A DNA stretch of 64,000 nt from Methanoculleus receptaculi (GCF_033472595.1 NZ_CP137642.1:1178001-1242000); one strand, 5' to 3'; counted from the stretch's first letter, positions 13,718-29,911 are shown. Numbers and translations: made by a program. Notes: generated from the letters alone by a model not told the origin.

Positions 13718-14152
13718 TCACGAACGGCCGGGGAGTCTCAGGAGTTCTCCGCCGTGGTCCAGTATCTTTTGGATGGCATCCTCGACCTGGTCCACGCGAA
13801 GGATCAGAACAGCCGCATCTTTACCGGAGTATGCATAGGCATACTCTATGTTGATCCCGGCATCCCCGAGCACCGAGGCTATCTCCGAGAGTCCTCCGGG
13901 CTCATCGCGCATCTTCACCCCGATGACATCGGTGAACGAGACGCGGAACCCGAGTTCGGTCAACGTTCGGTAGGCATCGTCCGGCCGGTCTACAAGCGCG
14001 CGAACGACACCGAACCCGTCCGCCTCGGCTATGCTGAACGCCAGGATGTTAATCCTGGCATCGCGCAGCGCAGCAGCAATTGCTGCAAGCCGTCCCGGCC
14101 GGTTCTCCGAGAAGACCGAGATCTGTTTGATGATATAAGGTGACTTCTCCAT
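13718..14152 (-). CDS. Tandem ACT-domain amino-acid sensor
   Basis: A 144-residue protein made of two ACT domains. The first contains ISVFSENRPGRLAAIAAALRD and INILAFSIAEADGFGVVRALVD. The second contains DEPGGLSEIASVLGDAGINIEYAYAY and AVLILRVDQVEDAIQ. The ENRPGRL and DEPGGL turns are the usual ligand-binding glycines. ACT pairs of this kind sit beside arylacetate-CoA ligases in methanogens, where they probably sense an aromatic amino acid. Its start overlaps the stop of the upstream ligase gene by one base (TAATG), so it is the third gene of a coupled trio. Confidence 0.86.
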   Translation of the reverse strand: MEKSPYIIKQISVFSENRPGRLAAIAAALRDARINILAFSIAEADGFGVVRALVDRPDDAYRTLTELGFRVSFTDVIGVKMRDEPGGLSEIASVLGDAGINIEYAYAYSGKDAAVLILRVDQVEDAIQKILDHGGELLRLPGRS

Positions 14153-15462
14153 TACAATGACCTCCTGTCTATAACTTTCCTGGATTTGCCCTCAAACCGC
14201 GGAAGAGTCCCCGGTTCGACCAGTTCAACCTCCACGCTCACGTTGAGCGAACTCTTGAGACGGTGCTCCACCTTCCTCTTGATCACCATGAGATCAGGGA
14301 TCCTGTCGGAGAATGCCTCCTCGCTCACCTCCACCCGCACGAGCATCGAGTCGAGCGCACCCTTCCGATCGACGACGATCTGGAAATGCTTCCCGACCTC
14401 GGGTATCTCAAGCAGCGTATGCTCCACCTGTGATGGGAATACGTTGATACCCCGGACGATCAGCATATCGTCAACCCTGCCGCGTATCCGACCGATACGC
14501 GGGTGTGTCCGGCCGCAGGCGCAGCGATCCGTATCGATAACTGTAAGGTCACCCGTCCGGTAGCGGACCATCGGGAGCGCCTCTTTCTGGAGCATCGTGA
14601 CGGTGAGTTCCCCCTCCTCACCGGCTTCAAGAACCTCGCCGGTCGCGGGGTCAACAACCTCCAGGAGCGCCAGGTCTCCCCAGATGTGGATCCCCTGCTG
14701 CTCGCTGCACTCCGTGAACATCGGGCCTGAGAGTTCGCTCGTCCCGTAGATGTCGTAAGCACGGATCCCGAGCCAGTCCTGGATCCGCGTTCGCATCTGC
14801 TCCGACCACGGTTCGGCGCCCAGGAAACCCATCTGGAGGTCGGTGTCGTCCCGTATCGAGATGCCCATCTTCTCCGCCACCTCACCGATGTGGAGGAGGT
14901 AGGAGGGGGTGCAGGCGATGGCGGTGACGTGGAGATCCTGCATCAGTTCCACCTGGCGCTCGGTGTTCCCGACGCTTGTCGGGAGCACCGTTGCCCCGAG
15001 ACGTTCGGCGCCGTAGTGTGCACCAAGCCCTCCGGTGAAGAGCCCGTAGCCGTAACTCACCTGAACAACGTCCCCCCGGCCAAGACCACAGGAGGAGAAC
15101 GCCCGTGCGAGAGACTCGCTCCAGTTTGCGATGTCGCGCTCTGTATACCCGACGACGGTCGGTTTTCCTGTTGTCCCGGAGGAGACATGGTACCTGACCA
15201 GTTCGCTCCGCTCGACGGCGAATATCTTATCCGGGTAACCGTCGCGCAGGTCTGACTTGTACATAAACGGAAGTTTCGCGAGATCCTCAAGATTTTTTAT
15301 ATCGTCGGGGTGGACGTCGTGCTCCTTCATCCTGCGCCGGTAGAACTCGTTAAAACTGTAGAGCCGGTATACCTGGGATTTGAGGAGCTTGAACTGGAGC
15401 CGCTGGAGTTCATCAATCGGCATCTCCTCGATCCGGGGGTTCCAGGGCGGCATCTCAGGCAT
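14152..15462 (-). CDS. paaK: Phenylacetate-CoA ligase family enzyme, copy A
   Basis: An AMP-forming acyl-CoA ligase of 436 residues. The adenylate-binding loop is YHVSSGTTGKPTVVGYT near residue 93, and AYDIYGTSELSGPMFTEC near residue 236 is the A5-like motif. MVRYRTGDLTVID near residue 303 and GRVDDMLIVRGINVFPSQ near residue 331 mark the hinge. In methanogens such enzymes activate phenyl-, indole- or hydroxyphenylacetate for reductive carboxylation to aromatic amino acids, a known salvage route. It overlaps the second ligase gene by 8 bp. The two copies differ enough for distinct substrates. Confidence 0.92.
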   Translation of the reverse strand: MPEMPPWNPRIEEMPIDELQRLQFKLLKSQVYRLYSFNEFYRRRMKEHDVHPDDIKNLEDLAKLPFMYKSDLRDGYPDKIFAVERSELVRYHVSSGTTGKPTVVGYTERDIANWSESLARAFSSCGLGRGDVVQVSYGYGLFTGGLGAHYGAERLGATVLPTSVGNTERQVELMQDLHVTAIACTPSYLLHIGEVAEKMGISIRDDTDLQMGFLGAEPWSEQMRTRIQDWLGIRAYDIYGTSELSGPMFTECSEQQGIHIWGDLALLEVVDPATGEVLEAGEEGELTVTMLQKEALPMVRYRTGDLTVIDTDRCACGRTHPRIGRIRGRVDDMLIVRGINVFPSQVEHTLLEIPEVGKHFQIVVDRKGALDSMLVRVEVSEEAFSDRIPDLMVIKRKVEHRLKSSLNVSVEVELVEPGTLPRFEGKSRKVIDRRSL

Positions 15463-16747
15463 TCCCCCGCCGGTCTATGACACGTCTTGCCTTCCCCTCG
15501 AACCGCGGCAGAGACGCCGGCTCCACCAGTCGCACCGCTGTCCGCAGCCCGAGTGTGTTCTGAAGCTCAGTCGATATCTTTTTCTGGATGCGGGCGAGGT
15601 CCTGAAGTTCGCCGGAGAACGAGACCTTGCTCATCTCTATCTCGATCGTCATCTCATCAAGATGTTTTACACGGTCGATATATACCATGAACTGATCCCC
15701 GACCTCGGGAAGGCTACGCAGTACATGCTCAATCTGGGAGGGGAAGACGTTGATCCCGCGGATGACCAGCATATCGTCGCACCTGCCGGTGATCCGCTCG
15801 ATCTTCTGGCCGCGGCCGCAGGCGCAGCCGTCCTCATCCATCAATCGAGTAATGTCGCCGGTACGGTAGCGGATGAGCGGCATCGCCTCCTTGACAAGCG
15901 GTGTGATGACAAGTTCGCCCCGCTCCCCGGGATCGAGGCGCTCCCCGGTCGCGGGGTCGATGACCTCAACCAGGTAAGAGTCGTGCCAGATATGGAGCCC
16001 GTCCCTCTCCGGGCACTCAAACGCCACACCGGGTCCGTACATCTCCGAGAGCCCGTAACTGTCGTAGGCTTTCAGCCCAAGACGGCGTTCGAGCTCGCCC
16101 CTCATGCTCTCTGACCAGGGTTCAGCCCCGAATATTCCTGTTTTGAGGGTATCCAGGCTCTTTCCCATCGATTCTGCCACCTCAGCGAGATGGAGGGCGT
16201 AACTGGGGGTGCAGTGGATGGCGGTCACCCCGAAGTCCTCGATCATCTCGATCTGGCGGCGGGTGTTCCCGGTTGCGCTCGGGATCACGGTCATCCCGAT
16301 CTTCTCGGCGCCGTAGTGGAACCCGAGCCCTCCTGTGAAAAGCCCGTAATTGACAGCGTTCTGAAAGATGTCGTCTTCTCCAAGCCCGATCATCGTCATG
16401 TTTCGCGCGATCAGTTCCGACCAGTTCTCCAGATCCTGCCGGGTGTAGCCGACAACAGTCGGTTTCCCGGTCGTCCCGGATGTGGTGTGGATCCGGACAA
16501 CCTCTTTCAGGGGGACGGCAAAGAGCCCGAACGGGTATCCGGCCTGGAGATCCTTTTTTGTGGTGAAAGGAAGTCTTTCCACGTCCTCAAGCGTCTTTAT
16601 GTCGTCAGGCGAGACGCCAGCCTCTTTCATCCTTCTCTGGTATAGTCCGGTCTTCCCGGCCTGGTGCAGTGACCACTTCAGCCGTTTAATCTGGAGATCC
16701 GCAAGTTCGTCGCCCCGGATCGTCTCCATCGCCCTGTTCCAGAACAT
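15455..16747 (-). CDS. paaK: Phenylacetate-CoA ligase family enzyme, copy B
   Basis: A 430-residue acyl-CoA ligase and the first gene of the ligase-ligase-ACT trio. It shows IHTTSGTTGKPTVVGYT, AYDSYGLSEMYGPGVAFEC, LIRYRTGDITRLMDEDGCACG and GRCDDMLVIRGINVFPSQ. I chose the ATG at 16747 (MFWNRAMETI), the usual family N-terminus; an ATG at 16795 would add 16 residues without family resemblance. A cysteine pair in CACGRGQ suggests the small structural loop common to this family. The likely role is activation of an arylacetate for aromatic amino acid synthesis from external acids. Confidence 0.92.
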   Translation of the reverse strand: MFWNRAMETIRGDELADLQIKRLKWSLHQAGKTGLYQRRMKEAGVSPDDIKTLEDVERLPFTTKKDLQAGYPFGLFAVPLKEVVRIHTTSGTTGKPTVVGYTRQDLENWSELIARNMTMIGLGEDDIFQNAVNYGLFTGGLGFHYGAEKIGMTVIPSATGNTRRQIEMIEDFGVTAIHCTPSYALHLAEVAESMGKSLDTLKTGIFGAEPWSESMRGELERRLGLKAYDSYGLSEMYGPGVAFECPERDGLHIWHDSYLVEVIDPATGERLDPGERGELVITPLVKEAMPLIRYRTGDITRLMDEDGCACGRGQKIERITGRCDDMLVIRGINVFPSQIEHVLRSLPEVGDQFMVYIDRVKHLDEMTIEIEMSKVSFSGELQDLARIQKKISTELQNTLGLRTAVRLVEPASLPRFEGKARRVIDRRGNA

Positions 16748-16903
16748 AGTTGGTATCCCATCGGTCTTTTGCCGGCAGAAGGGGCTCTCTCCCATCTACC
16801 GGCGGCGCTACTCCCCGGCGGGATGCCAGAGCCGCACCGCCGGGCGCAGTCTCTCTTTTAGGTTTGGGGGCAGTGCGGAAAAGGTTTGTCAATGGATGGC
16901 ACG

Positions 16904-17929
16904 CTACACGCTGACACCCATCATCTCCGGGCTGAGGGGGTCGGGCCATCCGGCTCTCTCCTCACGGAACGCCTCGATAACAAATTCTACAAACATCTGC
17001 GCTTCCTCCGGGTGCGGGACGTTGCGCGGAACGGTGATCGCGTATACTATCGGCTGGCCGATCCGCTCGCTGCCGATGGACTGGAACCGCTGGAACCCCA
17101 GGTTCACGCGCACCTTTCCGTAATAGTCGGCGTGTTCCGCTGAACCGAGGTTTATCTCGGGGGGAAGGTCGATCCAGTGGAGCCCGTGCTCCTCGGCAAC
17201 GCTCCGGTACTCAAAAGCGTAGTCGATCCCGCCGGCATCAAGGAGGGAGAGGAGGTAGATGCTCCCGTCCCGTATGGCAACCTTCTCTGTTGCGGGTCTC
17301 ATCCGTTCGGGGAGGTTTATTGTGATCATCCCGTCCTGAAGTTGAGGCCTGATCGGGGGATCGAATGCACCACCGATGATCTCATCAAAGAGCCCTGGCT
17401 CGTTGTAGTAATCCTCTGCAAGCGCTGTCACCATAAGCGCCCGGTAACCGCAGGAATCGAGCATCGGGTTTGAGAAACCCACCCGCACCTCCGGCCTGGC
17501 CAGGGTGCGGTACCAGTTCTCGGGCGTGATCTCGTCTGCACCCCTGCTACGGTCGGTGTAGGCGATCACGATCTCGTTCTCGGCAAAGGGGATGTACCAG
17601 TCGGTGTAGTCCTCTTCGCCCTTGCCCATCGGGATGTACATCATGTCCGGTATGAGGGACGCGTCGGCGACTGCGACGACATCGATGGGCCGCTGGAGGT
17701 CGGTCACCTGCCGGATGGCCTGGATACTCCCGTGCCCCTCGAGCTGAACGTCGATCTCGGGGTGCTGGTTCTCGAACTCAGCCTCTATCTGCTCAAACGG
17801 GTATAGAAGGCTCCCGGCCGGGACAACCTTGAGGACGGTGCGTTCCTGATCTGACCACGTACAGCCCGCAGCGGTTGCAAGGATGATGAGAAGGCCAAGC
17901 ACCGCCAGGAAGGCTGCACTCCGGCTCAT
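16904..17929 (-). CDS. wtpA: Tungstate/molybdate-binding lipoprotein WtpA
   Basis: Extracellular solute-binding protein for tungstate uptake, 341 residues. A hydrophobic signal ends in LATAAGC, a lipobox with the anchoring cysteine near residue 23. The mature protein has VVPAGSLLYPFEQIEAEF, RPIDVVAVADASLIPDMM, VGFSNPMLDSCGYRA and IVYAITVPRNVPHPEEAQMFVEF, the standard WtpA/ModA order. Tungsten feeds formylmethanofuran and formate dehydrogenases in these methanogens. Its ATG overlaps the stop of a sulfite-oxidase-like lipoprotein gene by 4 bp. No WtpB permease or WtpC ATPase gene is in the window, so it is an orphan binding protein here. Confidence 0.9.
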   Translation of the reverse strand: MSRSAAFLAVLGLLIILATAAGCTWSDQERTVLKVVPAGSLLYPFEQIEAEFENQHPEIDVQLEGHGSIQAIRQVTDLQRPIDVVAVADASLIPDMMYIPMGKGEEDYTDWYIPFAENEIVIAYTDRSRGADEITPENWYRTLARPEVRVGFSNPMLDSCGYRALMVTALAEDYYNEPGLFDEIIGGAFDPPIRPQLQDGMITINLPERMRPATEKVAIRDGSIYLLSLLDAGGIDYAFEYRSVAEEHGLHWIDLPPEINLGSAEHADYYGKVRVNLGFQRFQSIGSERIGQPIVYAITVPRNVPHPEEAQMFVEFVIEAFREERAGWPDPLSPEMMGVSV

Positions 17930-18498
17930 CTTCTTCTGACCTCGATCTTATCGACCCACTTCACCCAGGGGCTCCCTTCGGTGATGACGTCAGGCGTCTC
18001 TGATATGACAACAAGTCTGAGCGGGCCGCCGTTGTCGTGGGCCAGGGGTTTCCCGTCACAGTCGTAGGCCAGGATGACCTGGAGCGGCGGAGAGGGGATC
18101 TCGTGCAGGTTCTCATCGAAAGTAAAGAGTTCTTCACCCCTCACCTGCGCAGCATCAAAGACCCACATGTAGCCGTCCGGCGCTGAGACGTAGACGAGAT
18201 CGTCCTCTCCGACCCCGCCCACCATACCGAGCAGGTCGGTCAGGAGCACCCCCCGGTAACGGTTCGGGCCGTACCTGATCCCGACCGTGGAGACCGCATA
18301 CCCGTAACCCTCGACGGCGTCCATCTCCCTGATCTCATCGAGGCTGAGCACAATCTCGGTATCGCCAAGAAGCGTCAGGTTCCAGGGCGGGTAGTCGTCA
18401 GTCTCAGCCGTCCCGAGGCATCCGGCCGCGAGGGCCAGAAGGCCGATGGAGACCAGTATGAGGAGGGTGGGGTATGCCCTGCGGCGCACAGGGATCAC
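17926..18498 (-). CDS. Exported lipoprotein with sulfite-oxidase-like (molybdopterin-type) domain
   Basis: A 190-residue protein with a signal ending in LALAAGC, a lipobox. The rest matches the beta fold of the Oxidored_molyb domain: NLTLLGDTEIVLSLDEIREM, GVLLTDLLGMVGG, DLVYVSAPDGYMWVFD, LILAYDCDGKPLAHDNGGPLRLVV as a broken pattern, and a final WVKWVDKIEV. The cysteine that binds molybdenum in true sulfite oxidases is not at its usual place, so it may be a binding or structural domain. The GTG start overlaps the upstream stop, and its own stop overlaps wtpA. This double overlap links the fold to tungstate binding. Confidence 0.8.
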   Translation of the reverse strand: MIPVRRRAYPTLLILVSIGLLALAAGCLGTAETDDYPPWNLTLLGDTEIVLSLDEIREMDAVEGYGYAVSTVGIRYGPNRYRGVLLTDLLGMVGGVGEDDLVYVSAPDGYMWVFDAAQVRGEELFTFDENLHEIPSPPLQVILAYDCDGKPLAHDNGGPLRLVVISETPDVITEGSPWVKWVDKIEVRRR

Positions 18499-19337
18499 GC
18501 CCCTCCTCTCCTGGCGCAGAGGATCGCTGCTCCAGCGACCGCGAGAACCGTCACCAGCAGGGAGAGCGGGGCCTCTGTTGGTTCGGCAGCCGTCCCCGCC
18601 GGGGTGGTGAGGGATCCCGCCAGGGCTCCTTTCTCACCCTGGTAGCCACCGGTGTAAACCCTGATCTCATCCACCCACTTCACCGTAAGACCGCTTGTCG
18701 AGGGGTAGAGACCGTCGTAGAAGTGCTGGGCGGCATCAGGGAGCGTCTCGTGCATGTCCCAGTTTCCATAGACGTGGAGCCCTTCGGGGTTGGTGGAGTT
18801 GTCCGCGAAGAAGACAAGCCTCATCCCGGTGTAGTAGTCCGGAACGTAGCCTGTCCCCTGCCTCTCGCCGACCTCAGGATCGCCGCCGTTGTACCAGCAG
18901 ACCCCTATTGGGCCCTGGCGTGGGTCAGGTTCGTAGACGTTCTCGTATGGAAACTCGACGTGGTAGCCGTCGACCGCCTTCACCATGATCTCATCACCGG
19001 GCCCGGCGCCGCCGACCAGTTCGGCAAGATCGCGAATGTTGGTCCCCTTAACCGCCCCCCTGTCCTTGAAGTTGGTCGTCTCGTTCGGGTCCCATTTGTC
19101 CCCCTCAAACACGGGGCCCTGGTGGTAGTAGTGGGTCACACCGTCCCCGAGGACCGGGAGGTTCTCTTCCATCCAGCGGTAGTCGACCGTCGTCTCGTTT
19201 AAGATGGTGACTCCGTCGGCACCGATCTTTACTATCCGCAGTTCGGTCGTCGGTGCCGCTGATACGGCGCCGATCACCAGTATGCTCACGCAGAGGAGCG
19301 CGAGCAGAATCCGTCTGATCTCTGCATGCAAATCCAT
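18495..19337 (-). CDS. Exported surface protein with a sulfite-oxidase-like domain and C-terminal anchor
   Basis: About 280 residues. A signal peptide (LLALLCVSILVIGAVSA) precedes TTELRIVKIGADGVTILNE, the start of a domain shared by four proteins in this cluster. Further shared blocks are DGVTHYYHQGPVFEGDKW, GAVKGTNIRDLAELVGG, and GMRLVFFADNSTNPEG. A Thr/Pro/Glu linker and a hydrophobic segment (LSLLVTVLAVAGAAILCA) followed by RRGGA end the protein, a typical archaeal membrane anchor. The start at 19337 gives a one-base overlap with the upstream stop (TGATG); upstream ATGs at 19346 and 19340 are possible. The function is unknown. Confidence 0.75.
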   Translation of the reverse strand: MDLHAEIRRILLALLCVSILVIGAVSAAPTTELRIVKIGADGVTILNETTVDYRWMEENLPVLGDGVTHYYHQGPVFEGDKWDPNETTNFKDRGAVKGTNIRDLAELVGGAGPGDEIMVKAVDGYHVEFPYENVYEPDPRQGPIGVCWYNGGDPEVGERQGTGYVPDYYTGMRLVFFADNSTNPEGLHVYGNWDMHETLPDAAQHFYDGLYPSTSGLTVKWVDEIRVYTGGYQGEKGALAGSLTTPAGTAAEPTEAPLSLLVTVLAVAGAAILCARRGGA

Positions 19338-20512
19338 CATCTCCATAATTCTGGTAGTCTTGTTACACCTGCAACTGATGGGAAGACGCTCCACCACCCC
19401 GCCGGGAGGCGGACCGTCTCAATGACAAAACCCCGCGGGTAGAGCACAACCTCATCGTCAATAACCTTTGCAACCGGTATCATCTCTATGATGATCGATT
19501 CAGGGCTGACTCTCGCCCGGAGGTAGCCGAGCGTCTCCTCGCACCCCATTCGATATCCCTCAGGCTTCTCATCCGCAAGCGGGTAGAATGGGGCGCCACC
19601 GCAACCGATAACAAAATATTCTGTGCCGTTCACGCTGTAGCGCTCGTAAGCATGGGTGTGCGCGCTAAAGACAGCGTCGACACCATTCTCCGAGAAGATC
19701 TCAGCCCACTCGGCCCTGATCCCCAGGTCACCGCCCGGGCGTTTCCGATCGGCGCTGAACGGCGGGTGGTGGAACGCCACGATCTTTCGTGGCAGAGGGG
19801 ATCTGAGGTCTTCCTTGAGCCAGGCCGTCCGGTTCGCCATATCCGCCCAGGCGCGATCATTGCTGTCGAGGACGGTCACGTGGAGGCTTCCAGCATCAAA
19901 GGAATAGTCTGTGGGGACGGCAAAGATCCTGGAGAACGCCTCTGCGGTGCCGTCGTGGTTGCCTGCCACCGGAACCAGGGTTGTCTTCCTGAGCGCCTCT
20001 CCTGCCGCAGCGAAGAACTCATCCCACTCGGAGTCGTCGCAGACAAAGTCCCCGGTGTGGAGTAGAAAGAGGAACTCTTCCTCTTCGGCGATCCTCTCTG
20101 CCACAAGGCGGTGCCGGTCGGCCTGGGTGAAGAGGGGTTTCTGGCCGCGGGTGTCGCCGTATATGATACACGTAAACTCCAGGTCACCGAACGTCCTGAA
20201 CCTGCAGTCTCCTGTTGTCTCGTTCCCGCTGACCACACGGTAGCGGTAGGTTTTTGCCGGGGAGAGGTCGCTGAGGTGGGCGTGCCGGATACCCCCCTCC
20301 GTCCCGGATGAGGGTATGCGGTTGGTCTCGCCGCCTTCGACCGGGGCGTACTCCACCCATCCAGCGGTATCGCCGGTTGCCTTCCAGGAGACCACCGCCG
20401 AGTTGCTGGTGGTGTTGGTGACATAGGGCCCCCACACGATGCCGGCTGACGCTGCCTGAATGAGCAACAGCGCAACCGTCGCAGTTGCAAGTAAAGTGCA
20501 GTAACGTCTCAT
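19337..20512 (-). CDS. Exported metallophosphoesterase (purple acid phosphatase-like)
   Basis: A 391-residue secreted protein. After the signal peptide comes a fibronectin-like domain (GPYVTNTTSNSAVVSWKA to TYRYRVVSG). A calcineurin-like phosphoesterase follows with the metal motifs YGDTRG near residue 119, GDFVCDDSEWD near 154, PVAGNHDGT near 182, AFHHPPFS near 246 and SAHTHAYER near 287. This order matches purple acid phosphatase-type enzymes that release phosphate outside the cell. It lies 7 bp downstream of the 966-residue surface protein and its stop overlaps the next gene. It is the only clear enzyme in the cluster. Confidence 0.88.
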   Translation of the reverse strand: MRRYCTLLATATVALLLIQAASAGIVWGPYVTNTTSNSAVVSWKATGDTAGWVEYAPVEGGETNRIPSSGTEGGIRHAHLSDLSPAKTYRYRVVSGNETTGDCRFRTFGDLEFTCIIYGDTRGQKPLFTQADRHRLVAERIAEEEEFLFLLHTGDFVCDDSEWDEFFAAAGEALRKTTLVPVAGNHDGTAEAFSRIFAVPTDYSFDAGSLHVTVLDSNDRAWADMANRTAWLKEDLRSPLPRKIVAFHHPPFSADRKRPGGDLGIRAEWAEIFSENGVDAVFSAHTHAYERYSVNGTEYFVIGCGGAPFYPLADEKPEGYRMGCEETLGYLRARVSPESIIIEMIPVAKVIDDEVVLYPRGFVIETVRLPAGWWSVFPSVAGVTRLPELWR

Positions 20513-20519
20513 CTCTCAC

Positions 20520-23420
20520 TCACTCCTCCAGGGTCACCAGGCACCGGGTCGTCGCCCCCGCTTTCACAAGCACATCTTCGACGGTCCTGGAATCGTTCTC
20601 AGAGACCACACGGACGTCGTATGTGCCGATGCTCATCCCGGTGAATGTATGCGGGGTCTTCTCGCCGGTGTAGCGCCCGTAAAGGTATATCCTGGCGTCA
20701 GGAACGTTGCTCTCGACCAGGAGGTCACCGCTGGTGTATTCCTGGAGAGTGCAGGTTATGACGCCGCCGTTCCTCGAGCCTTCCGGTATCGTGATCACAT
20801 CGTCAGCGGGGAGATAGCCCGGCATCGAGACCAGAATCCGGTGCCGCCCTGGCGAGAGTCCATCTATCCGGCAGGGGGTTCTCTCATCTGTGGGGAAACC
20901 ATCGATGAAGACAAGCGCGCCTGGCGGGTTCGACTTGACACTGAGGGATACGGTCTCACCGGTCCAGGGTTCGATCACGAATCTCATACCGTCTTCAACC
21001 GGCGCGGGCAGGGAGGAGGAGAGGTAGCGTCCCTCGTGCACGACGGTTGCCCAGCCCCATACCCCCTCTACCTCCCCCTCGCCAGGGATGGTGCCGGCGC
21101 GAAAGAGGCCGTTTAAGGTGAACCTCTCACCCCTGTAGGCCTCAGACTCGACCCGGACGGTCTTTCTGCTTGAGGGAGCCACGCCATCGAGATGGACGGG
21201 CGCGATAGCGTCCGGGTAGACCCAGGCCTGGACGGTCTCAAACCGGTAACCGGGCTCCTCCTGCCCTGGATACGTTGTGCTCGCCTCGACCTGGATGGTA
21301 TGCAGCCCCTCACGGAGGCCGTAGATAACGCGGGGCGTCTGGCGCGAGAGTTTTTTGTTGTCCACGATGATCGTCATCCCCGGCGGATATGAGGTGATGT
21401 AAACCCCGCCCGAGTGGTTCTTCACGACCAGATTCACTGTGGGTGTCGCAGTCGGGGTGGGTCGTGCCTCTTCGGGGACGGTGGTCTCCTCAACCTCGGG
21501 GAGATCTATCGTGGTATTCTGTTCCGGTTCTTCGGTTGAGAACCCGAAGATCCCGGAAAGGAATCCGAGTAGCCTCTCGATAAGAGACTTCCGGGCCTCT
21601 ACCGGTGGTGGCGAGGGTTCCGGCATACCGTCGGTGGTGGTCAGGCTGAGGATGACGCCCCTGATCACCGCGTCCTCTCCTTCCAGGCGGAGTTCGTTTG
21701 ATGATTCATTCAGGCAGGCCAGCACGTCATACTCCGTGATCGCGGGTTCGCCTTGCGGGATCCCGGTTATGCTGTGGCCGTTGAACCTGGCGGTGATATT
21801 ACCGGTACCCACGATCAGCAGCCTGGCGGCAGAGACCCGGGAAAGGTCGGGCGCCGGTTCAAACCTAACAGAACTCTCTCCATCCGGGATGAGGAGCCCC
21901 TCGCCTATCCAGCATATGAAGGAGGATGCGTTCTCGTCCACCTCCGCTGTCAGGAGGAGACCGCCGGGGATGACACCTGGCGGGCAATGTGCCGTAAACG
22001 TGGTGCCGTTCTCACCGGTAAGGTTTGCGGCAAACGTCGCGGCAGCCGCGGTGGTGTATCGCCGGTCAGGGTTGACCCCTTCGAACTCCGGTTCACCGGC
22101 GCTCCTGTTATCGATGTAGATGTAACCCCGCCCCTTCGCCCCGTCAGGGAGGCGGTAACTCACCACGCTCCCGTTGGCGGTGGTGGAGATGTTTGCCGGG
22201 AGAACGTCAACCCTCCCGCGGAACTCAAACGGCCCGAGCAGCGAAAACTGTGTGGCGTTGCCCGGCGTTGCATTTATCGATGCCTCCGGGAGGGTTTCAG
22301 GCACGCTCTCGTTTACGGGGATGAGGACGAGATCCAGAATGCTGTACTCGTCCTCCTCGACCACAACAGTCCGGGTGGCGTTCCGGTAACCCGGCAGCAC
22401 AAGTTCGATCGTGTGCTCTCCGACCGGCACCTCCTCCATGACGGTGTCGGTGTAGAGCCCGGTCGCCTCGCCGTTGAGGATGATGCTGGCGTTGGTCGGG
22501 ACGGATGAGACGGCGATCTTCCCGGTGATGGGGGTAAGGTTGAACTCGACCTCCGTGATCTGGTTTGCCCCGACCATGACCCACCTCTCATCGGGCTGGA
22601 CGTAACCCTCCTTCTCAACCACGACGGAGTGACTCCCCACCTCGATGCCGGTGAGGGTGTATGGTGTCTCATACCCCGTATCCTCACCATCCAGGAAGAT
22701 GGGTGCCCCGGATGGGGTTGAGTTCACGTGGATGCCGCCAGTGGGCTCCTCCTCGCTGTAGATGAGGATCTCGCTTATGTACTGGACGGAGAGCCCGGTT
22801 GTTGTTGGATACTCACCGCTGTAGAAGTACCAGTATTCCTCGTCAAAGCACTCGTGCATGTCCCATACGCCGAAAGCGTGGACACCGTCGGGGTTTGTGG
22901 AGGTATCTGCAAAGAAGACAAGACGCATGCCCGAACGGTAGTCGGGGACGTATCCGTCTTCATTGTGGTACCATGTTATGACCATCGGCCCCTGGCGGGG
23001 TTCAGGTTCGTAGACGTTTCGGTAGGGAAACACCCTTGAGAGTCCGTCGGATGCCTTGATCCTGACGGTCTCGTCCTCCTTCATCCCGCCGACAAGGTCG
23101 CAGATATCCTTGAGGTCGGTTCCCTTCACCGCGCCCATATCCTTCTCAAGGACGTTTGTATCCTCTTCGGGGTTCCAGGGGTCACCCTCAAATACGGGGC
23201 CCTGGTGGTAGTAGTGTGTCACACCGTCACCCTGGATGGGTAGGTTTGACTCAAGCCAGCGGTAGTCAACCGTTGTCTCGTTTAGGATGGTCACGCCGTC
23301 TGCTGCATACCTGACGATGTGGAGTTCGGTTGTCGCTGCCATGGCAGCAGGTGCTGCCAGCGCAAGCAGCAGGCAGAGCGCAAGGATCGCAGGGTGTCTG
23401 ATATAGTGGTCTGATGACAT
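20520..23420 (-). CDS. Large exported surface protein: sulfite-oxidase-like plus PEGA domains
   Basis: A 966-residue protein. The signal peptide (LALCLLLALAAPAAMA) precedes a sulfite-oxidase-like domain starting TTELHIVRYAADGV, to about residue 235. Two PEGA domains follow (IHVNSTPSGAPIFLDG and IAVSSVPTNASIILNG). A long middle region of about 230 residues with a conserved tryptophan-poor beta pattern resembles the methanogen DUF3344-type surface domain. A Thr/Pro/Glu linker and at least three further PEGA-like repeats (VYITSYPPGMTIIVDN, LSVKSNPPGALVFIDG, LLVESNVPDARIYLYG) reach the C-terminus. There is no C-terminal membrane anchor. PEGA repeats are often cell-surface stalks. The ATG at 23420 has GGAG 7 bases upstream. 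Confidence 0.77.
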   Translation of the reverse strand: MSSDHYIRHPAILALCLLLALAAPAAMAATTELHIVRYAADGVTILNETTVDYRWLESNLPIQGDGVTHYYHQGPVFEGDPWNPEEDTNVLEKDMGAVKGTDLKDICDLVGGMKEDETVRIKASDGLSRVFPYRNVYEPEPRQGPMVITWYHNEDGYVPDYRSGMRLVFFADTSTNPDGVHAFGVWDMHECFDEEYWYFYSGEYPTTTGLSVQYISEILIYSEEEPTGGIHVNSTPSGAPIFLDGEDTGYETPYTLTGIEVGSHSVVVEKEGYVQPDERWVMVGANQITEVEFNLTPITGKIAVSSVPTNASIILNGEATGLYTDTVMEEVPVGEHTIELVLPGYRNATRTVVVEEDEYSILDLVLIPVNESVPETLPEASINATPGNATQFSLLGPFEFRGRVDVLPANISTTANGSVVSYRLPDGAKGRGYIYIDNRSAGEPEFEGVNPDRRYTTAAAATFAANLTGENGTTFTAHCPPGVIPGGLLLTAEVDENASSFICWIGEGLLIPDGESSVRFEPAPDLSRVSAARLLIVGTGNITARFNGHSITGIPQGEPAITEYDVLACLNESSNELRLEGEDAVIRGVILSLTTTDGMPEPSPPPVEARKSLIERLLGFLSGIFGFSTEEPEQNTTIDLPEVEETTVPEEARPTPTATPTVNLVVKNHSGGVYITSYPPGMTIIVDNKKLSRQTPRVIYGLREGLHTIQVEASTTYPGQEEPGYRFETVQAWVYPDAIAPVHLDGVAPSSRKTVRVESEAYRGERFTLNGLFRAGTIPGEGEVEGVWGWATVVHEGRYLSSSLPAPVEDGMRFVIEPWTGETVSLSVKSNPPGALVFIDGFPTDERTPCRIDGLSPGRHRILVSMPGYLPADDVITIPEGSRNGGVITCTLQEYTSGDLLVESNVPDARIYLYGRYTGEKTPHTFTGMSIGTYDVRVVSENDSRTVEDVLVKAGATTRCLVTLEE
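22744..23390 (-). repeat. Near-identical 647-bp block, copy 1 (within the 966-residue protein gene)
   Basis: Ungapped match to 24267-24913 with about two dozen differences by eye. It encodes the signal peptide and sulfite-oxidase-like domain. Differences concentrate near 23180-23270, leaving long stretches identical, as expected after gene conversion. Confidence 0.85.
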
Positions 23421-23518
23421 GCTCTTTCTCCAGCGTCTCGATGAAAATGGGGGTGCCGGCTAACCCCCTAATGGAAAAGATTGGGTGTGTTCTGGACATG
23501 CACCCCGGTTTTCCAGCA

Positions 23519-24943
23519 TCATGCGCCGATGGCAGCTAGCGTCCTGGCTCCTGTCATGTAGACCCAGTAGCCCTGCATAGGCTCCATCGTGCGTTCCTCA
23601 CCGTGCCGGCCGGTGGCGCCCCTGACGATCGAGATCTCGTATTCCTGGCTTTCTGCATCAAACCCGATCAGGGTTGTCCAGTGATCGCCCAGAGAGAGCA
23701 GGGTGTTTGCAGCGGACTCGGGAACGGTGTCGGTGAACCCGATCGCGTTCCAGCCTTTGCCCAGGCTCTTTGTTGGCGGAACCTGCGGACCGCCTGGAGC
23801 GAAGGTCAGGGGAACTGTGCAGGCCTCGGTTGCATAGACCCAGACACCATCGAGCGGCTTGAAGGCATCGGCTGAGGCCGCTGCTTTCCACTCATGTGTG
23901 AGCCCGTCATAGAGCAGGATGGAGTGGCCGGCGGTATCGACGCTGCCGTAGATGGCCGCGAATGTATCTGAGCCATCCATGAGCCGTTTCGGCGTGGAGA
24001 TGAAGTTCCAGCCCTCCTCAAGGCTGATCACGATGTCGGGTTCAGGAGGAAGCGGTGTCAGCACAACCGGATCGGGACGACTGCATTCATCCATCTCAAC
24101 GGTGACGCTCATGGTTACACTCTGGTATCCTGACAGCCGGAGTTCGATCGTGTGCTCACCCACAGGAACATCTTCCAGGGTCGCGTTGGTCTGCAGCCCC
24201 GTATCGATACCGTCAAGGTAGATCGCCGCGCCGGCCGGGATCGAGGACACATAGACACTCCCGGCAGGCTCCTCATTGCTGTAGATGAGGATCTTGCTTA
24301 TGTACTGGACGGAGAGCCCGGTTGTTGTTGGATACTCACCGCTGTAGAAGTACCAGTATTCCTCGTCAAAGCACTCGTGCATGTCCCATACGCCGAAAGC
24401 GTGGACACCGTCGGGGTTTGTGGAGGTATCTGCAAAGAAGACAAGACGCATGCCCGAACGGTAGTCGGGGACGTATCCGTCTTCATCGTGGTACCATGTT
24501 ATGACCATCGGCCCCTGGCGGGGTTCAGGTTCGTAGACGTTTCGGTAGGGAAACACCCTTGAGAGTCCGTCGGATGCCTTGATCCTGACGGTCTCGCCCT
24601 CCTTCATCCCGCCGACAAGGTCGCAGATATCCTTGAGGTCGGTCCCCTTCACCGCGCCCATATCCTTTTCAAGGACGTTTGTATCCTCTTCGGGGTTCCA
24701 CTTATCCCCCTCAAATACGGGGCCCTGGTGGTAGTAGTGTGTCACACCATCACCCTGGACGGGGAGATTTTCCTCAAGCCAGGTGTAGTCAACCGTTGTC
24801 TCGTTTAGGATGGTCACGCCGTCTGCTGCATACCTGACGATGTGGAGTTCGGTTGTCGCTGCCATGGCAGCAGGTGCTGCCAGCGCAAGCAGCAGGCAGA
24901 GCGCAATGATCGCCCGGTGCATGATTGAATTTTTGGGTATCAC
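23519..24943 (-). CDS. Exported surface protein: sulfite-oxidase-like, PEGA and GWNFISTP-type domains
   Basis: A 474-residue protein. The signal and first domain (to about residue 230) are nearly identical to the 966-residue protein. One PEGA repeat (VYVSSIPAGAAIYLDG) follows. The last 155 residues form a beta domain (ISLEEGWNFISTPKRL, AGHSILLYDGLTHEW, DGVWVYATEACTVPL, KGWNAIGFTD, PMQGYWVYMT) nearly identical to the end of the 1238-residue protein. The protein thus looks like a mosaic of its two neighbours. A GTG start at 24943 has AGGAG 9 bases upstream; an ATG at 24922 is the alternative. No membrane anchor is seen at the end. Confidence 0.78.
   Translation of the reverse strand: MIPKNSIMHRAIIALCLLLALAAPAAMAATTELHIVRYAADGVTILNETTVDYTWLEENLPVQGDGVTHYYHQGPVFEGDKWNPEEDTNVLEKDMGAVKGTDLKDICDLVGGMKEGETVRIKASDGLSRVFPYRNVYEPEPRQGPMVITWYHDEDGYVPDYRSGMRLVFFADTSTNPDGVHAFGVWDMHECFDEEYWYFYSGEYPTTTGLSVQYISKILIYSNEEPAGSVYVSSIPAGAAIYLDGIDTGLQTNATLEDVPVGEHTIELRLSGYQSVTMSVTVEMDECSRPDPVVLTPLPPEPDIVISLEEGWNFISTPKRLMDGSDTFAAIYGSVDTAGHSILLYDGLTHEWKAAASADAFKPLDGVWVYATEACTVPLTFAPGGPQVPPTKSLGKGWNAIGFTDTVPESAANTLLSLGDHWTTLIGFDAESQEYEISIVRGATGRHGEERTMEPMQGYWVYMTGARTLAAIGA
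23533..24029 (-). repeat. Near-identical 497-bp block, copy 1
   Basis: Ungapped match to 26092-26588, encoding the C-terminal GWNFISTP-type domain. Most positions are identical, with small clusters of changes near 23750-23830. Confidence 0.85.
24267..24913 (-). repeat. Near-identical 647-bp block, copy 2 (within the 474-residue protein gene)
   Basis: Partner of 22744-23390 at a constant offset of 1523 bp. It includes the signal peptide coding region, so sequence homogenisation covers the export signal as well as the domain. Confidence 0.85.
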
Positions 24944-24980: not shown

Positions 24981-26066
24981 CTATCTCCTCCTCATAAGGA
25001 CGTATGCTGCAACCGCGATGACGAGGACGATAACGATTCCGATCACCCAGACCGGGAACGCAGCCGGCTCTCCTTCAGGTACAGGTGTAGCCTCCGTTTC
25101 AGGCGATGGTGTGGCCTCGGGGGATCTCCACGCAAGCGCGAAGATGCTGAAATGCGAGACCTCAGCCGTGATGGTTCTGGTCGCGGGATCAACCGTCGCC
25201 GCGATCTCCTGCCATTCCCCGCTATCGGGGTTGTACCACATGACCGTCGGCTTCAGCCCTTCGTCGATCCTCGCCCACTCATCCTCTGGGAGTGTATAGG
25301 TGAGGCTGATCGGCGGGTCGAAGGTTGCGCCGTCAGGGCCGCATGAAAGGGCTATGGCGAGAGTCGCGCCGGGTGGCGCCGGCGGGACTTCCGCGGGGTC
25401 GACCTTTGTGCATGTGACAGAGGTGAGAGGGTTGCCTCCAGCATCAAGGGCGGTTGTAGCCTCAGGTATCGTCAATGCAGCAACCTCGTCCTCCGTCCTG
25501 ACCACCACCGGTTCGAGCAGCACGCCTGCGGTCGATGTGGTCAGGGTGGCCTCTTTTGTGAAGATCACCGGGGCGGTGGGGGCTCCGGGTTCGTAAACAA
25601 CCTCTGATCCAGGTGAACCGGAGGTGCCCTTACCTCCCCCTCCCCCACCGCCGCCGGTGCTGCCGCCAGGTGGCGTGGTGGGTGTGGCCTCCGCGGCAAC
25701 GTTCAGGTCGAGGGCTGTTACCGCACCGGAGGTGAAGTTTGCAGTCCCGGCGGCAACCCTCCCGTTGACCAGAAAGGTTATCGACGCCCCCTCCTGGTCA
25801 GCGGCTGCCGTCACGATCAGGCGGTTCCCGAGGCTCGGGTCGGGACTGCCGTAGCGTCCCGCCTCCACGGTCACGACAGAACCGCACTCCACTCCATCGA
25901 TCGTGGCGGTGATCTCGGTCCCTGCCGGTGCCGCGGATCCGCCTATCATCACCTTCCCGTAGAACTCATGCGGCAGAACGGGGGGAGATCCCTCCGTTGC
26001 TGCCGCTGCCCCGGCGACAAGCCCGAGGAGGAGCAGGAGCACGATACCGTGTTGTTTCAACCCCAT
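24981..26066 (-). CDS. Membrane-anchored surface protein with glycine-rich linker
   Basis: About 361 residues. After the signal (HGIVLLLLLGLVAGAAA) comes a small beta domain (HEFYGKVMIGGSAAPAGTEITA to AAGTANFTSG), like the carrier beta domains in other methanogen surface proteins. A linker of threonine, proline and nine or so consecutive glycines follows. Then a 170-residue domain (EVVYEPGAPTAPVIFT to VSHFSIFALAW) that resembles ZU5 or self-assembly beta modules, and a final membrane helix (FPVWVIGIVIVLVIAVAAYVL) with MRRR. I chose the ATG at 26066, with GAGG 9 bases upstream; a TTG at 26081 overlaps the upstream stop. The role is unknown, possibly anchoring the unanchored neighbours. Confidence 0.68.
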   Translation of the reverse strand: MGLKQHGIVLLLLLGLVAGAAAATEGSPPVLPHEFYGKVMIGGSAAPAGTEITATIDGVECGSVVTVEAGRYGSPDPSLGNRLIVTAAADQEGASITFLVNGRVAAGTANFTSGAVTALDLNVAAEATPTTPPGGSTGGGGGGGGKGTSGSPGSEVVYEPGAPTAPVIFTKEATLTTSTAGVLLEPVVVRTEDEVAALTIPEATTALDAGGNPLTSVTCTKVDPAEVPPAPPGATLAIALSCGPDGATFDPPISLTYTLPEDEWARIDEGLKPTVMWYNPDSGEWQEIAATVDPATRTITAEVSHFSIFALAWRSPEATPSPETEATPVPEGEPAAFPVWVIGIVIVLVIAVAAYVLMRRR

Positions 26067-26077
26067 ACACTTCATCC

Positions 26078-29000
26078 TCAAGCACCTATTGCAGCAAGCG
26101 TGTCGGCATCGGTCATGTAGACCCAGTAGCCCTGCATAGGCTCCATCGTGCGTTCCTCACCGTGCCGGCCGGTGGCGCCCCGGATGATCGAGACCTCGTA
26201 TTCCTGGCTTTCTGCATCAAACCCAATCAGGGTTGTCCAGTGATCGCCCAGAGAGAGCAGGGTGTTTGCAGCGGACTCGGGAACGGTGTCGGTGAACCCG
26301 ATCGCGTTCCAGCCCTCGCCCAGGTCCTTTGTTGGCGGGGTTTCAGGTCCGGCCGGAGCAAATGTCAGGGGAACTGTACAGGTCTCGTTTGCATAGACCC
26401 AGACACCATCGAGCGGCTTGAAGGCATCGGCTGAGGCCGCTGCTTTCCACTCCTGTGTGAGCCCGTCGTAGAGCAGGATGGAGTGGCCGGCGGTATCGAC
26501 GCTGCCGTAGATGGCCGCGAATGTGTCTGAGCCATCCACGAGCCGTTTCGGCGTGGAGATGAAGTTCCAGCCCTCCTCAAGGCTGATCGTGGCGTTGGCT
26601 TCCGGGGGTTCCTCGACGACCGGCACACCGGTGAGCACGATCTCATCGATGCTCCCGACCCTCTGCTTGTTGGAGGTCAGGGCGGAGCCGACAAGTTTGA
26701 GCGGCCAGGTCTTGCCATCCTTTGGAAGCGGGGCGCCGTCGATCTCGTCGGCGACGATGATGTTGTTGTTCCGCGCAACAAACGAACTGTTGAATGTGGC
26801 GGAGAAGTCGTCATCGGTGCCCTTTGTGCCGTCAGCGCCGTAATCGATGACGGTCACGTTGTAGCCCGCCGCCGCGAGATCGTCACGGAATGGGTTTGTG
26901 CCGTAATCGTGCTTGTTTCCATCGTCAACCCAGCCACATAGGAGCCAGAGCGGCATCCCCGACCAGACACGCCCCTCATCATCCGTCCAGGTGGCACCGT
27001 GCCCGCCCATCGTGCAGGCTTTGCCCGACTCAAAGTAGGACCGGCTGATGGTGTCGGTGATGGCGCCTGTCAGGATGAGGTTCCAGTCCTCCCGTGCACC
27101 CGGCTTGATAGCGATGGTCGCGATATTTTTGTTGGATACACCGGCGGCCGAGGGATACTGAATGCCGCTGTCCCAGTAGTAGTGCCAGTAGTCTTCGGCG
27201 AGGCACGTCCGCATGTCGTCGTTTCCAAAGATTCCGTCTGAAGTGTTGAAGAAGAGGCGCGGGCCGTCACTGTAGTCGGGGACGTAGCCCCGCCCCTCCG
27301 CCCACCAGGCGACTATGGCCTCGCCCTGACGTTCGAGCGGTTCGTAGATGTTGGTGTAGTTGAGTTTGACCTTGTAGCCGTCGGAGGCTATGAGTTCGAT
27401 CTCACCACCCTCGGGGACGCCGCCGACAAGGTCGCAGAGGTCGCGGATCGCCGTTCCCTTCACGACGTTATCGACTTTGGCGGGGTCTACGTTGATGTCT
27501 TCTGCAGGGTTCCAGAGGTCATCTGGATCAAAGGTTGGGCCCTGGAACCTGAGTCGAACACCGTTATCCCCGCCGATGACGTCCAGATTTGCTTCCATCC
27601 ACTGGATGGTCTTTGTCGTCTCGTTTACAACGGTCACACCGTCCGAGGCGTAGCGGACGACCCGGATGGACGGGGGTTCCTCCGGCTCCTGGAAGTCGAC
27701 GAGCTGGATACGCTGGACGTTCCCGATACTCTTGCTCCCGGTTGCCCCCTCGCCGACGAGGCGGAGCGGATAGGCGCTCCCGGTGATCGGGGTGCCGTTG
27801 ACCATGTTTGCAACGATGTAGTTGTTCGGGTTTGTCAGGATATCCTGGCTTGAGAACTCCTTGCTGTAGGGGTTATCCCCGCCCGAAGAGACGATCACGG
27901 TATAACCGGCTTGGGCAAGCGCGTTGTTGAAGGCTCCTGAACCGTGCATGACGTCATCATCGACCCAGCCGCAGAGGACCTTCAGCGGGACGCCGCTCCA
28001 GGTGCTCACGCCGTCGTTGTAGGTCTTCGTGTGGTAGCCGCACGCTTCGAACTCTTCCTTCGTAAGAAGGTCCGTAACCTTTGGCCCCTCCAGGCTGAGC
28101 GTCCACTCCGACTCGGTGACCTCGTCGGGGAGGCCCTCGAGGATGATCGACGCGATGCTGCCGATCCTCTGTTTTCCGGAGGTCACGCCAGGCCCGACAA
28201 GTTTCAGCGGGGCGCCGTTATCCTCGGTGAGCGGTGCTGCGTTCATCTTGTTTGCAACGATGAACGAGTTGTTCCGGGCGATATCGGCGCTGTTGAAAGT
28301 GGCGGAAAAGCCGTCGGCCGCGCTCACGCGCACGGTGTAGCCCGCCGCCGCCCGTGTGTCGTTCAGCGTCCAGTGATTCCCGGTCGCCACGTCGTCTACA
28401 ACGGCTGCAAGATACCAGAGCGGGATACCCGTCCAGACCTGTTCGCTGCTATCGGTGTAACTCGTGCCGTGGCATTCAGCACCCTCCTCGAACTCGGCCT
28501 GTGTGAGTGTCCGGTTGAAAGCGCCGGAAAGCGTGATCTCCCAGCCTTCGGAGGGTTCGGAGAGGCCGATGAGTTCGATCTCGGCAATGCCGCCGATCTT
28601 CTGGCCGGCACTCACGTTGGGACCGATGAGCTGGAGCGGCCAGCAGGGTTTGTTCTTATCGCCGATGGTCTCCGGGAGCGACTCGCCGTTTAAGGTGTTT
28701 GCGACGATGATGCCATCGTTCCTCGCGATGCTTGCGCTATCAAAGTTGATAGAGTAGTTATCGCTTGAGGTGACCTTGATCGAGTAGCCCTCTGCGGCGA
28801 GGTCGTCGTTGAAAGCGCCGGGGCCGTGCCTCAGATCGTCATCGACAAGGCCGATGAGGTACCACAGGGGCATCCCGCTCCAGGCATCACCGTTATCGTC
28901 GGTGTATGTGGCGACATGTCCGCAGTTCACCCCGTCCTCAAAGTAGTCCTGGCCGACCTCCTCCGTTCGTGCACCGATGAGGCTGACGCTCCAGGTGGCC

Positions 29001-29794
29001 GGCTCGAGAGGTGTCTCATCGGAGTCCTCAAGACCCACGGTGATCGTGATCAGCGCTGTTGCGGTCTCCGGCGTCGGGTCACTGCCGTAGCAGAAGACAA
29101 CCTCATCACCTTCGGCAAGGGCGACGACGTTGATGGCGTCGCTTTGACTCTCGTAACCGTCCTTCAATACACCGTTGACGTAACACGCCCATTCGGCCGT
29201 TCTTTTGATGTAGAGGTAGCCATCGATATCATCTAGCAGGAGAACTCTATTATCATCTGCCCAGCGCTTGTCGGTGACGTTGTAGGTGAAACCCTTCTGT
29301 TCCGATACCTTCTGGAGGGCGCCAAGCGGGGTCCGGTTGCTGACGGTGTAGGTCACTCCGGAGTTGTAAGCGGTGCACTCGAAAGTGCCGTTATCCAGCG
29401 CAACCGTTCCGTTGAAAAGGACGGTCTCGCCAGAGAGGATGCCGATGGATTCGTCATCCGGTTCTTCTTCGGCCGTCACCATCGGTTCAACCGTTGGTGT
29501 CCCCTCTGGCTCTTCCCCGGTGGCTGCTGTCGGTTCAACCGTTGGTGTCCCCTCCGGCTCTTCCCCGGTGGCTGCTGTCGGTTCAACCGTTGGTGTCCCC
29601 TCCGGATCTTCCCCGATGGTTGCTGTCGGTTCATCGGTGGATGTCACTTCAGGGCCAGGATTGGTATTCGCTATACCATCTCCGGGGCTCACGTTCCCGC
29701 CCGGAAGAGTCTCCCCGACTGCCGGCAGCACCAGCAGTGAGCATAACAGCAGTACGAACAGAGCGTACTGAATCTTTTTCGGCTTTTCGTTCAT
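26078..29794 (-). CDS. Giant exported protein with five sulfite-oxidase-like domains and a DUF4430-like domain
   Basis: A 1238-residue secreted protein. Order: signal peptide; a Thr/Pro/Glu linker of three 16-residue repeats; a DUF4430-like domain (ECTAYNSGVTYTVSN to DEVVFCYGSDP), a family related to the corrinoid-binding end of transcobalamin. Five sulfite-oxidase-like domains follow; four share a Cys/His pair about 12-16 residues before a W-S/T-G-x-P-L motif (such as NCGHVATYTD and ACTMGGHGATWTD), while the fourth is the TTELHIV type seen next door. A GWNFISTP-type domain ends it, with no anchor. The start at 29794 (MNEKPKKIQYAL) begins a clean signal peptide; an earlier frame start at 29848 adds 18 residues. 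It is the first gene of the cluster. Confidence 0.78.
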   Translation of the reverse strand: MNEKPKKIQYALFVLLLCSLLVLPAVGETLPGGNVSPGDGIANTNPGPEVTSTDEPTATIGEDPEGTPTVEPTAATGEEPEGTPTVEPTAATGEEPEGTPTVEPMVTAEEEPDDESIGILSGETVLFNGTVALDNGTFECTAYNSGVTYTVSNRTPLGALQKVSEQKGFTYNVTDKRWADDNRVLLLDDIDGYLYIKRTAEWACYVNGVLKDGYESQSDAINVVALAEGDEVVFCYGSDPTPETATALITITVGLEDSDETPLEPATWSVSLIGARTEEVGQDYFEDGVNCGHVATYTDDNGDAWSGMPLWYLIGLVDDDLRHGPGAFNDDLAAEGYSIKVTSSDNYSINFDSASIARNDGIIVANTLNGESLPETIGDKNKPCWPLQLIGPNVSAGQKIGGIAEIELIGLSEPSEGWEITLSGAFNRTLTQAEFEEGAECHGTSYTDSSEQVWTGIPLWYLAAVVDDVATGNHWTLNDTRAAAGYTVRVSAADGFSATFNSADIARNNSFIVANKMNAAPLTEDNGAPLKLVGPGVTSGKQRIGSIASIILEGLPDEVTESEWTLSLEGPKVTDLLTKEEFEACGYHTKTYNDGVSTWSGVPLKVLCGWVDDDVMHGSGAFNNALAQAGYTVIVSSGGDNPYSKEFSSQDILTNPNNYIVANMVNGTPITGSAYPLRLVGEGATGSKSIGNVQRIQLVDFQEPEEPPSIRVVRYASDGVTVVNETTKTIQWMEANLDVIGGDNGVRLRFQGPTFDPDDLWNPAEDINVDPAKVDNVVKGTAIRDLCDLVGGVPEGGEIELIASDGYKVKLNYTNIYEPLERQGEAIVAWWAEGRGYVPDYSDGPRLFFNTSDGIFGNDDMRTCLAEDYWHYYWDSGIQYPSAAGVSNKNIATIAIKPGAREDWNLILTGAITDTISRSYFESGKACTMGGHGATWTDDEGRVWSGMPLWLLCGWVDDGNKHDYGTNPFRDDLAAAGYNVTVIDYGADGTKGTDDDFSATFNSSFVARNNNIIVADEIDGAPLPKDGKTWPLKLVGSALTSNKQRVGSIDEIVLTGVPVVEEPPEANATISLEEGWNFISTPKRLVDGSDTFAAIYGSVDTAGHSILLYDGLTQEWKAAASADAFKPLDGVWVYANETCTVPLTFAPAGPETPPTKDLGEGWNAIGFTDTVPESAANTLLSLGDHWTTLIGFDAESQEYEVSIIRGATGRHGEERTMEPMQGYWVYMTDADTLAAIGA
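26092..26588 (-). repeat. Near-identical 497-bp block, copy 2
   Basis: Partner of 23533-24029 at a constant offset of 2559 bp. It lies at the 3' end of the giant gene, as copy 1 lies at the 3' end of its own gene. Confidence 0.85.
29484..29627 (-). repeat. Three tandem 48-bp repeats in the surface giant
   Basis: Units start at 29484, 29532 and 29580, with a partial fourth at 29628. Each codes for 16 residues (GTPTVEPTAATGEEPE or a close variant). The in-frame unit length means copy number changes would lengthen the linker without breaking the protein. Confidence 0.9.
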
Positions 29795-29885: not shown

Positions 29886-29911
29886 AGTTAATTAACTACC
29901 TTAAGTTAACT
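29886..29911. promoter_or_regulatory. Two nested AGTTAA palindromes, possible operator
   Basis: AGTTAATTAACT (29886-29897) and AGTTAACT (29904-29911) are both perfect palindromes sharing the AGTTAA half-site, 6 bp apart. They sit just upstream of the surface-cluster TATA box and about 105-130 bp before cas1, so they could serve either gene. Confidence 0.4.

Follow-up and report, generated by a model that had tools for sequence, protein, structure and literature searches.

A tungstate/molybdate-binding protein gene, wtpA1, and the surface-protein genes with which it shares an operon in Methanoculleus receptaculi probably, though by no means certainly, make up an accessory module for capture at the cell surface, which serves a tungstate/molybdate importer of the WtpABC type. 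The operon lies in a stretch of 64,000 nucleotides (NZ_CP137642.1:1178001-1242000; the window, from whose first nucleotide all window positions are counted) of a complete, Methanoculleus-like genome of 1.98 Mb. The closest named relative is Methanoculleus sp. isolate Yes49-05. Conserved linkage, co-occurrence with transporter genes, a domain fusion and the protein fold jointly support an accessory extracellular module for the acquisition of tungsten (W) or molybdenum (Mo). These archaea need W or Mo, both of which are scarce, for their formylmethanofuran and formate dehydrogenases, and to our knowledge oxyanion importers of the ATP-binding cassette (ABC) type are the only uptake routes known.

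wtpA1 is coupled to genes for SUOX-fold surface proteins

The operon ends with Sox300, SoxLp and wtpA1, all on the minus strand. wtpA1 (16904-17929) encodes a tungstate/molybdate substrate-binding lipoprotein of 341 amino acids (aa) with the lipobox TAAGC, which belongs to a distinct WtpA subfamily. SoxLp (17926-18498) encodes a 190-aa lipoprotein (lipobox LAAGC) with the sulfite oxidase (SUOX) fold (PF00174, E=2.5e-13), and the product of Sox300 (18495-19337) is exported, carries a C-terminal membrane anchor and is assigned a remote SUOX fold by hhalign and Foldseek; Sox300 is itself a conserved neighbour at WtpA1 loci. An earlier, sequence-only reading of this DNA had described an ATGA overlap between SoxLp and wtpA1 and a GTGA overlap between Sox300 and SoxLp. 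Both were read directly in the window sequence, and the ATGA overlap is kept in most Methanoculleus orthologues. The same reading took the third gene for another SUOX gene starting at 19397; the fold comparisons agree with the kinship, but Sox300 has no match in Pfam (PF00174 included) or NCBIfam, and GTG 19397 is an unlikely start, since it falls inside the phosphoesterase gene. Translation more probably begins at an ATG near 19337-19340 with a Sec signal after it, which would give a protein of about 280 aa.

WtpA1 scores above the curated cut-off of TIGR03730 (347 versus 243 bits) and below that of a second model, NF003196 (325 versus 355), and is the sole full WtpA match in the genome. A search of 60 relatives revealed two WtpA groups, WtpA1 (54-89% identical to the window protein) and WtpA2 (about 40-46%). 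Archaeal and bacterial WtpA1 form one clade in the tree (SH-aLRT, Shimodaira-Hasegawa-like approximate likelihood ratio test, 100), apart from WtpA2 and the structurally known WtpA proteins. Three WtpA1 matches contain an in-frame TGA, which is most likely a normal stop inside the match; the genes are complete open reading frames of the expected length.

The linkage of wtpA to SUOX domains, for which the sequence-only reading pointed to the Methanomicrobiales, is conserved there and in other lineages. When about 85,000 species genomes were scanned, 80 named WtpA1 loci emerged, and a SUOX-type gene lies immediately upstream of wtpA1 in 75 of the 75 with room upstream, these loci being related and hence not independent. 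The linkage was found in Methanomicrobiales, Methanophagales (ANME-1), ANME-2c, Argoarchaeum, Methanosaeta and bins of Chloroflexota, Acetothermia and Actinomycetes. Copies of the archaeal-type cluster in contigs filed as Clostridiaceae and Omnitrophota (L104, L140) are probably binning errors. In the neighbourhoods from the 60-relative search, Sox300 and SoxLp stand directly 5' of wtpA1 wherever contigs reached, and wtpA2 genes belong to tup/wtp clusters that have no SoxLp. SoxLp, called above 230 bits, was present in 22 genomes of a phylum-wide draw of 197, each time with a WtpA match beside it (22/22; up to about 205 bp between the edges of the matches), and by our own count 78 of the 99 above-cut-off WtpA genes in this draw have no adjacent SoxLp. 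Furthermore, a Chloroflexota contig encodes a fusion protein (L164:7431-8807) of a WtpA with a SUOX domain at its C-terminus, and the Methanolinea cluster also holds TupA, a TupA-WtpA fusion, a phosphoesterase and more SUOX proteins. Gene order is conserved across families and domains far beyond chance, and the split between archaea and bacteria, the differing surrounding genes and the fusion protein argue against mere inertia. Among open-licence papers, none was found that links SUOX-fold proteins to WtpA.

Other WtpA genes with frames of 450-740 aa were considered as SUOX fusions; those examined were WtpA-TupA or WtpA-ModA-like fusions or had SUOX-less tails. Fusions of two oxyanion-binding proteins (TupA-WtpA, WtpA-TupA, WtpA-ModA-like) occur in several archaea (L107:5477-7426, L176:3511-5364, L177:3036-4835, L179:3045-5159). 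In another Methanomicrobiales genome, a SUOX/PEGA-type protein is encoded beside tupABC-wtpA2 (L085:2471-5110).

SoxLp resembles the pterin-binding protein PruR

The AlphaFold2 model of SoxLp, built with 59 orthologues, reached a predicted local distance difference test score (pLDDT) of 92. Its best PDB match in Foldseek was PruR (7kom, E=1e-7), a periplasmic member of PruR-DcpA/DTB systems; sulfite dehydrogenases and oxidases ranked next. PruR has a SUOX fold, is exported, binds small pterins, has no Mo-ligating Cys and works with DcpA (PMC13259868). Both proteins are small, exported and cofactor-less, and both genes lie upstream of, and coupled to, the partner gene. The pterin-site Tyr and Trp are apparently conserved as well: Tyr110 and Trp178 of SoxLp are invariant (59/59), with Trp178 aligned to PruR Trp160 by global hhalign and Tyr110 matched to PruR Tyr104 by the DGY/NDY motif only. 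SoxLp differs from PruR in being a lipoprotein, in its partner, which is an ABC substrate-binding protein (wtpA) and not DcpA/DTB, in having Thr/Ser and not Trp near the Mo-Cys position, and in keeping GPxR and VKW segments.

Sox300 aligns with SoxLp over 39 columns of the common core (hhalign, 98%). Its model (pLDDT 72) also has PruR as top Foldseek match, a weak one (E=0.014, prob 0.99), and by these sequence and model comparisons its kinship to SUOX is remote but real.

The proteins of the unit carry Sec/lipoprotein export signals; a lipobox is present in 47 of the 59 SoxLp orthologues, and twin arginines are not conserved among them. Export of a loaded cofactor thus seems unlikely, as the sequence-only reading had argued from Sec-like signals, and its preference for a scavenged oxyanion or pterin is in line with a closest solved fold that is an exported pterin-binding protein.

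WtpB and WtpC are encoded elsewhere in the genome

No wtpB or wtpC gene is present at the locus, as the sequence-only reading had noted; the genome does carry a wtpB-wtpC pair, 0.73 Mb away at C1:466892-468824 (L018:11893-13825), beside tupABC and without a substrate-binding gene. Relatives carry wtpA2-wtpB-wtpC at this position; therefore, wtpA2 appears to have been lost, leaving WtpA1 as the only WtpA. The closest relative (G002) shows this orphan pair too. In a comparison of genomes with a completeness of at least 90%, wtpB is kept in 6/6 that have WtpA1 only versus 0/12 without any WtpA (Fisher p=5e-5, uncorrected for relatedness). In addition, a wtpB/modB- or ATPase-type gene follows within 600 bp 3' of wtpA1 in 25 of the 71 loci with room, for instance in Methanolinea.

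The genome also encodes ModABC, TupABC and a second Mod-like importer. TupABC and ModABC resemble the system described here as W/Mo importers of the same genome, by a similar promoter element in relatives and by the TupA-WtpA fusion in Methanolinea; they differ in their substrate-binding families, and no SUOX partner was seen with them.

Since this genome has WtpBC, which in relatives occur along with WtpA1 and in many loci are encoded directly after it, transport is more probable than sensing alone. For sensing, SoxLp and WtpA1 would report external W/Mo or a pterin to another protein, as PruR does to DcpA, and WtpA1 would no longer feed a transporter. PruR, the closest fold, acts in signalling and is coupled to the gene of its receptor (PMC13259868), and wtpB is not adjacent in most WtpA1 loci. 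However, no receptor-type gene recurs in the annotated WtpA1 neighbourhoods, many lineages have wtpB-wtpC after wtpA1, and every WtpA1-only genome retains them. Sensing in place of uptake is therefore unlikely in our judgement. The sequence-only reading had allowed for capture or sensing of W, Mo or their cofactor at the surface; the conserved unit and its strong link to W/Mo uptake uphold the surface system, whereas the idea of a missing transporter was not supported.

The surface proteins of the operon

The minus-strand operon spans about 29794 down to 16904 and is a larger unit than 16904-19397. Its first gene (26078-29794, probable ATG at 29794) encodes a surface protein of 1256 aa in which a Sox300-like domain is combined with four SUOX repeats (PF00174, 1e-19). 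It is followed by the gene of a 366-aa exported protein with a C-terminal membrane anchor (24981-26081), an operon member conserved in Methanoculleus by synteny, for which Pfam and NCBIfam gave no family match. Two Sox300-like/PEGA proteins come next, one of 474 aa (23519-24943; PF08308, 1.3e-13) and one of 966 aa (20520-23420; PF08308, 7e-56). The longer one combines an N-terminal domain similar to Sox300 by alignment with five PEGA stretches, and the shorter is a near-copy of its N-terminus; the N-terminal 220 residues of the two (20520-24943) are near-identical, which indicates a recent tandem duplication. An exported, purple-acid-phosphatase-like metallophosphoesterase (19337-20512; PF00149, 5.5e-16; PF16656, 1.2e-9) precedes Sox300, and such a gene is present in 20 of 38 well-covered WtpA1 loci.

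SoxLp shares fold and sequence similarity with sulfite oxidases and sulfite dehydrogenases (PF00174; 1ogp, 2xts); SoxLp and Sox300 differ from them in the absence of a conserved Mo-ligating Cys and of a dimerisation domain, and in Sec-type export. Among the 59 SoxLp orthologues no Cys is conserved at the Mo-ligand segment (residues 60-86); the most frequent one, at position 81, occurs in 36/59 and is Tyr in the window protein. The SUOX proteins might be externally assembled, sulfite-oxidase-like molybdo- or tungsto-enzymes, with WtpA1 supplying metal to them or to the cell. In each of its four SUOX repeats the 1256-aa protein retains a Cys ahead of W-x-G-[MIV]-P-L (C..H in 84 of 98 such repeats over all loci), and SoxLp has preserved two SUOX-enzyme segments, GPLR and VKW; both findings would suit such enzymes. 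Against this stand the Sec-type signals, the SoxLp ligand segment and the annotated WtpA1 clusters, in which no electron-transfer partner gene recurs, and we consider such enzymes improbable. Because the repeats of the large protein keep the Cys and SoxLp does not, different SUOX domains may bind different states of one ligand.

A structural or adhesive role for the SUOX/PEGA proteins, which would then merely share an operon with wtpA1, is about equally improbable. The PEGA repeats, the size and the anchors of several members would fit, but the linkage survives the archaea-bacteria split with different surrounding genes and extends to a fusion protein of WtpA with SUOX.

Two phenylacetate-CoA-ligase-like genes (14152-16795) come after wtpA1 in many Methanoculleus genomes. 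A Cas1-like gene (30016-30954) diverges from the operon, which it adjoins also in L052 and L054, and is probably unrelated.

The oxyanion site of WtpA1

WtpA1 resembles the WtpABC tungstate/molybdate importer (Pyrococcus furiosus; known structures AF0094, MA0280, MJ1186, PH0151, PF0080) in passing TIGR03730, in keeping the pocket Ser and Asp160 (residue numbering as in PMC4139814 and PMC10221389) and in having WtpB/WtpC in the genome or, in relatives, downstream. It differs in forming a separate subfamily with an obligate SUOX-fold partner, in the detached wtpBC of this genome and in a Ser at Glu218. Asp160 is aligned in every WtpA1 sequence of the alignment, in which the metal ligand Glu218 is replaced by Ser and a new Glu appears in the neighbouring (F/W)EYRSVA strand. 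Most Methanomicrobiales WtpA2 share the replacement of Glu218 (Ser; Ala in two) together with the new Glu. With Ser and Asp160 kept, Glu218 replaced and a new Glu nearby, oxyanion binding by WtpA1 is likely but not assured, and since the Glu218 carboxylate is replaced by Ser, its affinity or ligand may differ from those of Pyrococcus WtpA. That WtpA1, together with the SUOX proteins, transports not W/Mo but a different oxyanion or some small organic ligand is very improbable: the exchange at Glu218 and the subfamily-specific motifs HGSIQ and NPMLDACG would allow it, but Asp160 and the pocket Ser are kept, WtpBC are shared with W transporters, and TupA lies in the same cluster in Methanolinea.

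A candidate promoter element

A 25-bp element, GTTAACTTAA-N4-GTTAATTAACT, is a candidate operator upstream of the operon (29886-29910, minus strand); it is also found upstream of related SUOX genes. A matrix trained only on operon and SUOX-gene promoters was scanned on 260 kb of other loci, where 7 of the 10 best matches fell 15-130 bp upstream of tupA, wtpA2 or modA genes. The mean for matrices with permuted columns was 3.2 of 10, and 6 of 300 equalled the real matrix. These data are suggestive of co-regulation of the operon with tup/wtp/mod genes. A second GTTAACTTAA copy at C1:1573376 adjoins a superoxide dismutase gene, and no link to W was found.

A proposed extracellular step in W/Mo acquisition

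As an accessory capture module, the operon could work as follows. SoxLp, with its cofactor-less, PruR-like SUOX fold, and the other SUOX surface proteins would capture a W/Mo-bearing ligand outside the cell, which may be a W/Mo-pterin that stems from other cells or simply the oxyanion, and hand it over; the phosphoesterase would help to release it. The co-translated WtpA1 would then take the oxyanion to WtpB-WtpC, whose genes lie far from wtpA1 in this genome and beside it in many relatives. W/Mo-pterin is a plausible candidate ligand. Full scavenging of tungsto- or molybdopterin, in which Cys-less SUOX surface proteins bind W/Mo-pterins released by other cells, the phosphoesterase trims them and a specialised WtpA imports the freed metal or cofactor, is possible but rather doubtful.

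Several observations weigh against a capture module. The phosphoesterase is found in only about half of the well-covered loci, and two thirds of the loci with room have no wtpB within 600 bp downstream. WtpA1 lacks the second metal-coordinating carboxylate (Glu218), and the promoter test is merely suggestive. Finally, the GPxR and VKW segments common to SoxLp and SUOX enzymes are absent from PruR, and for this reason a simple pterin need not be the SoxLp ligand.

The pairing of a WtpA subfamily with a pterin/Mo-cofactor-type fold across two domains of life points to an unrecognised step of W/Mo acquisition in methanogens and methane oxidisers. It also offers a testable function for many proteins that are annotated merely as 'molybdopterin-dependent oxidoreductase'.

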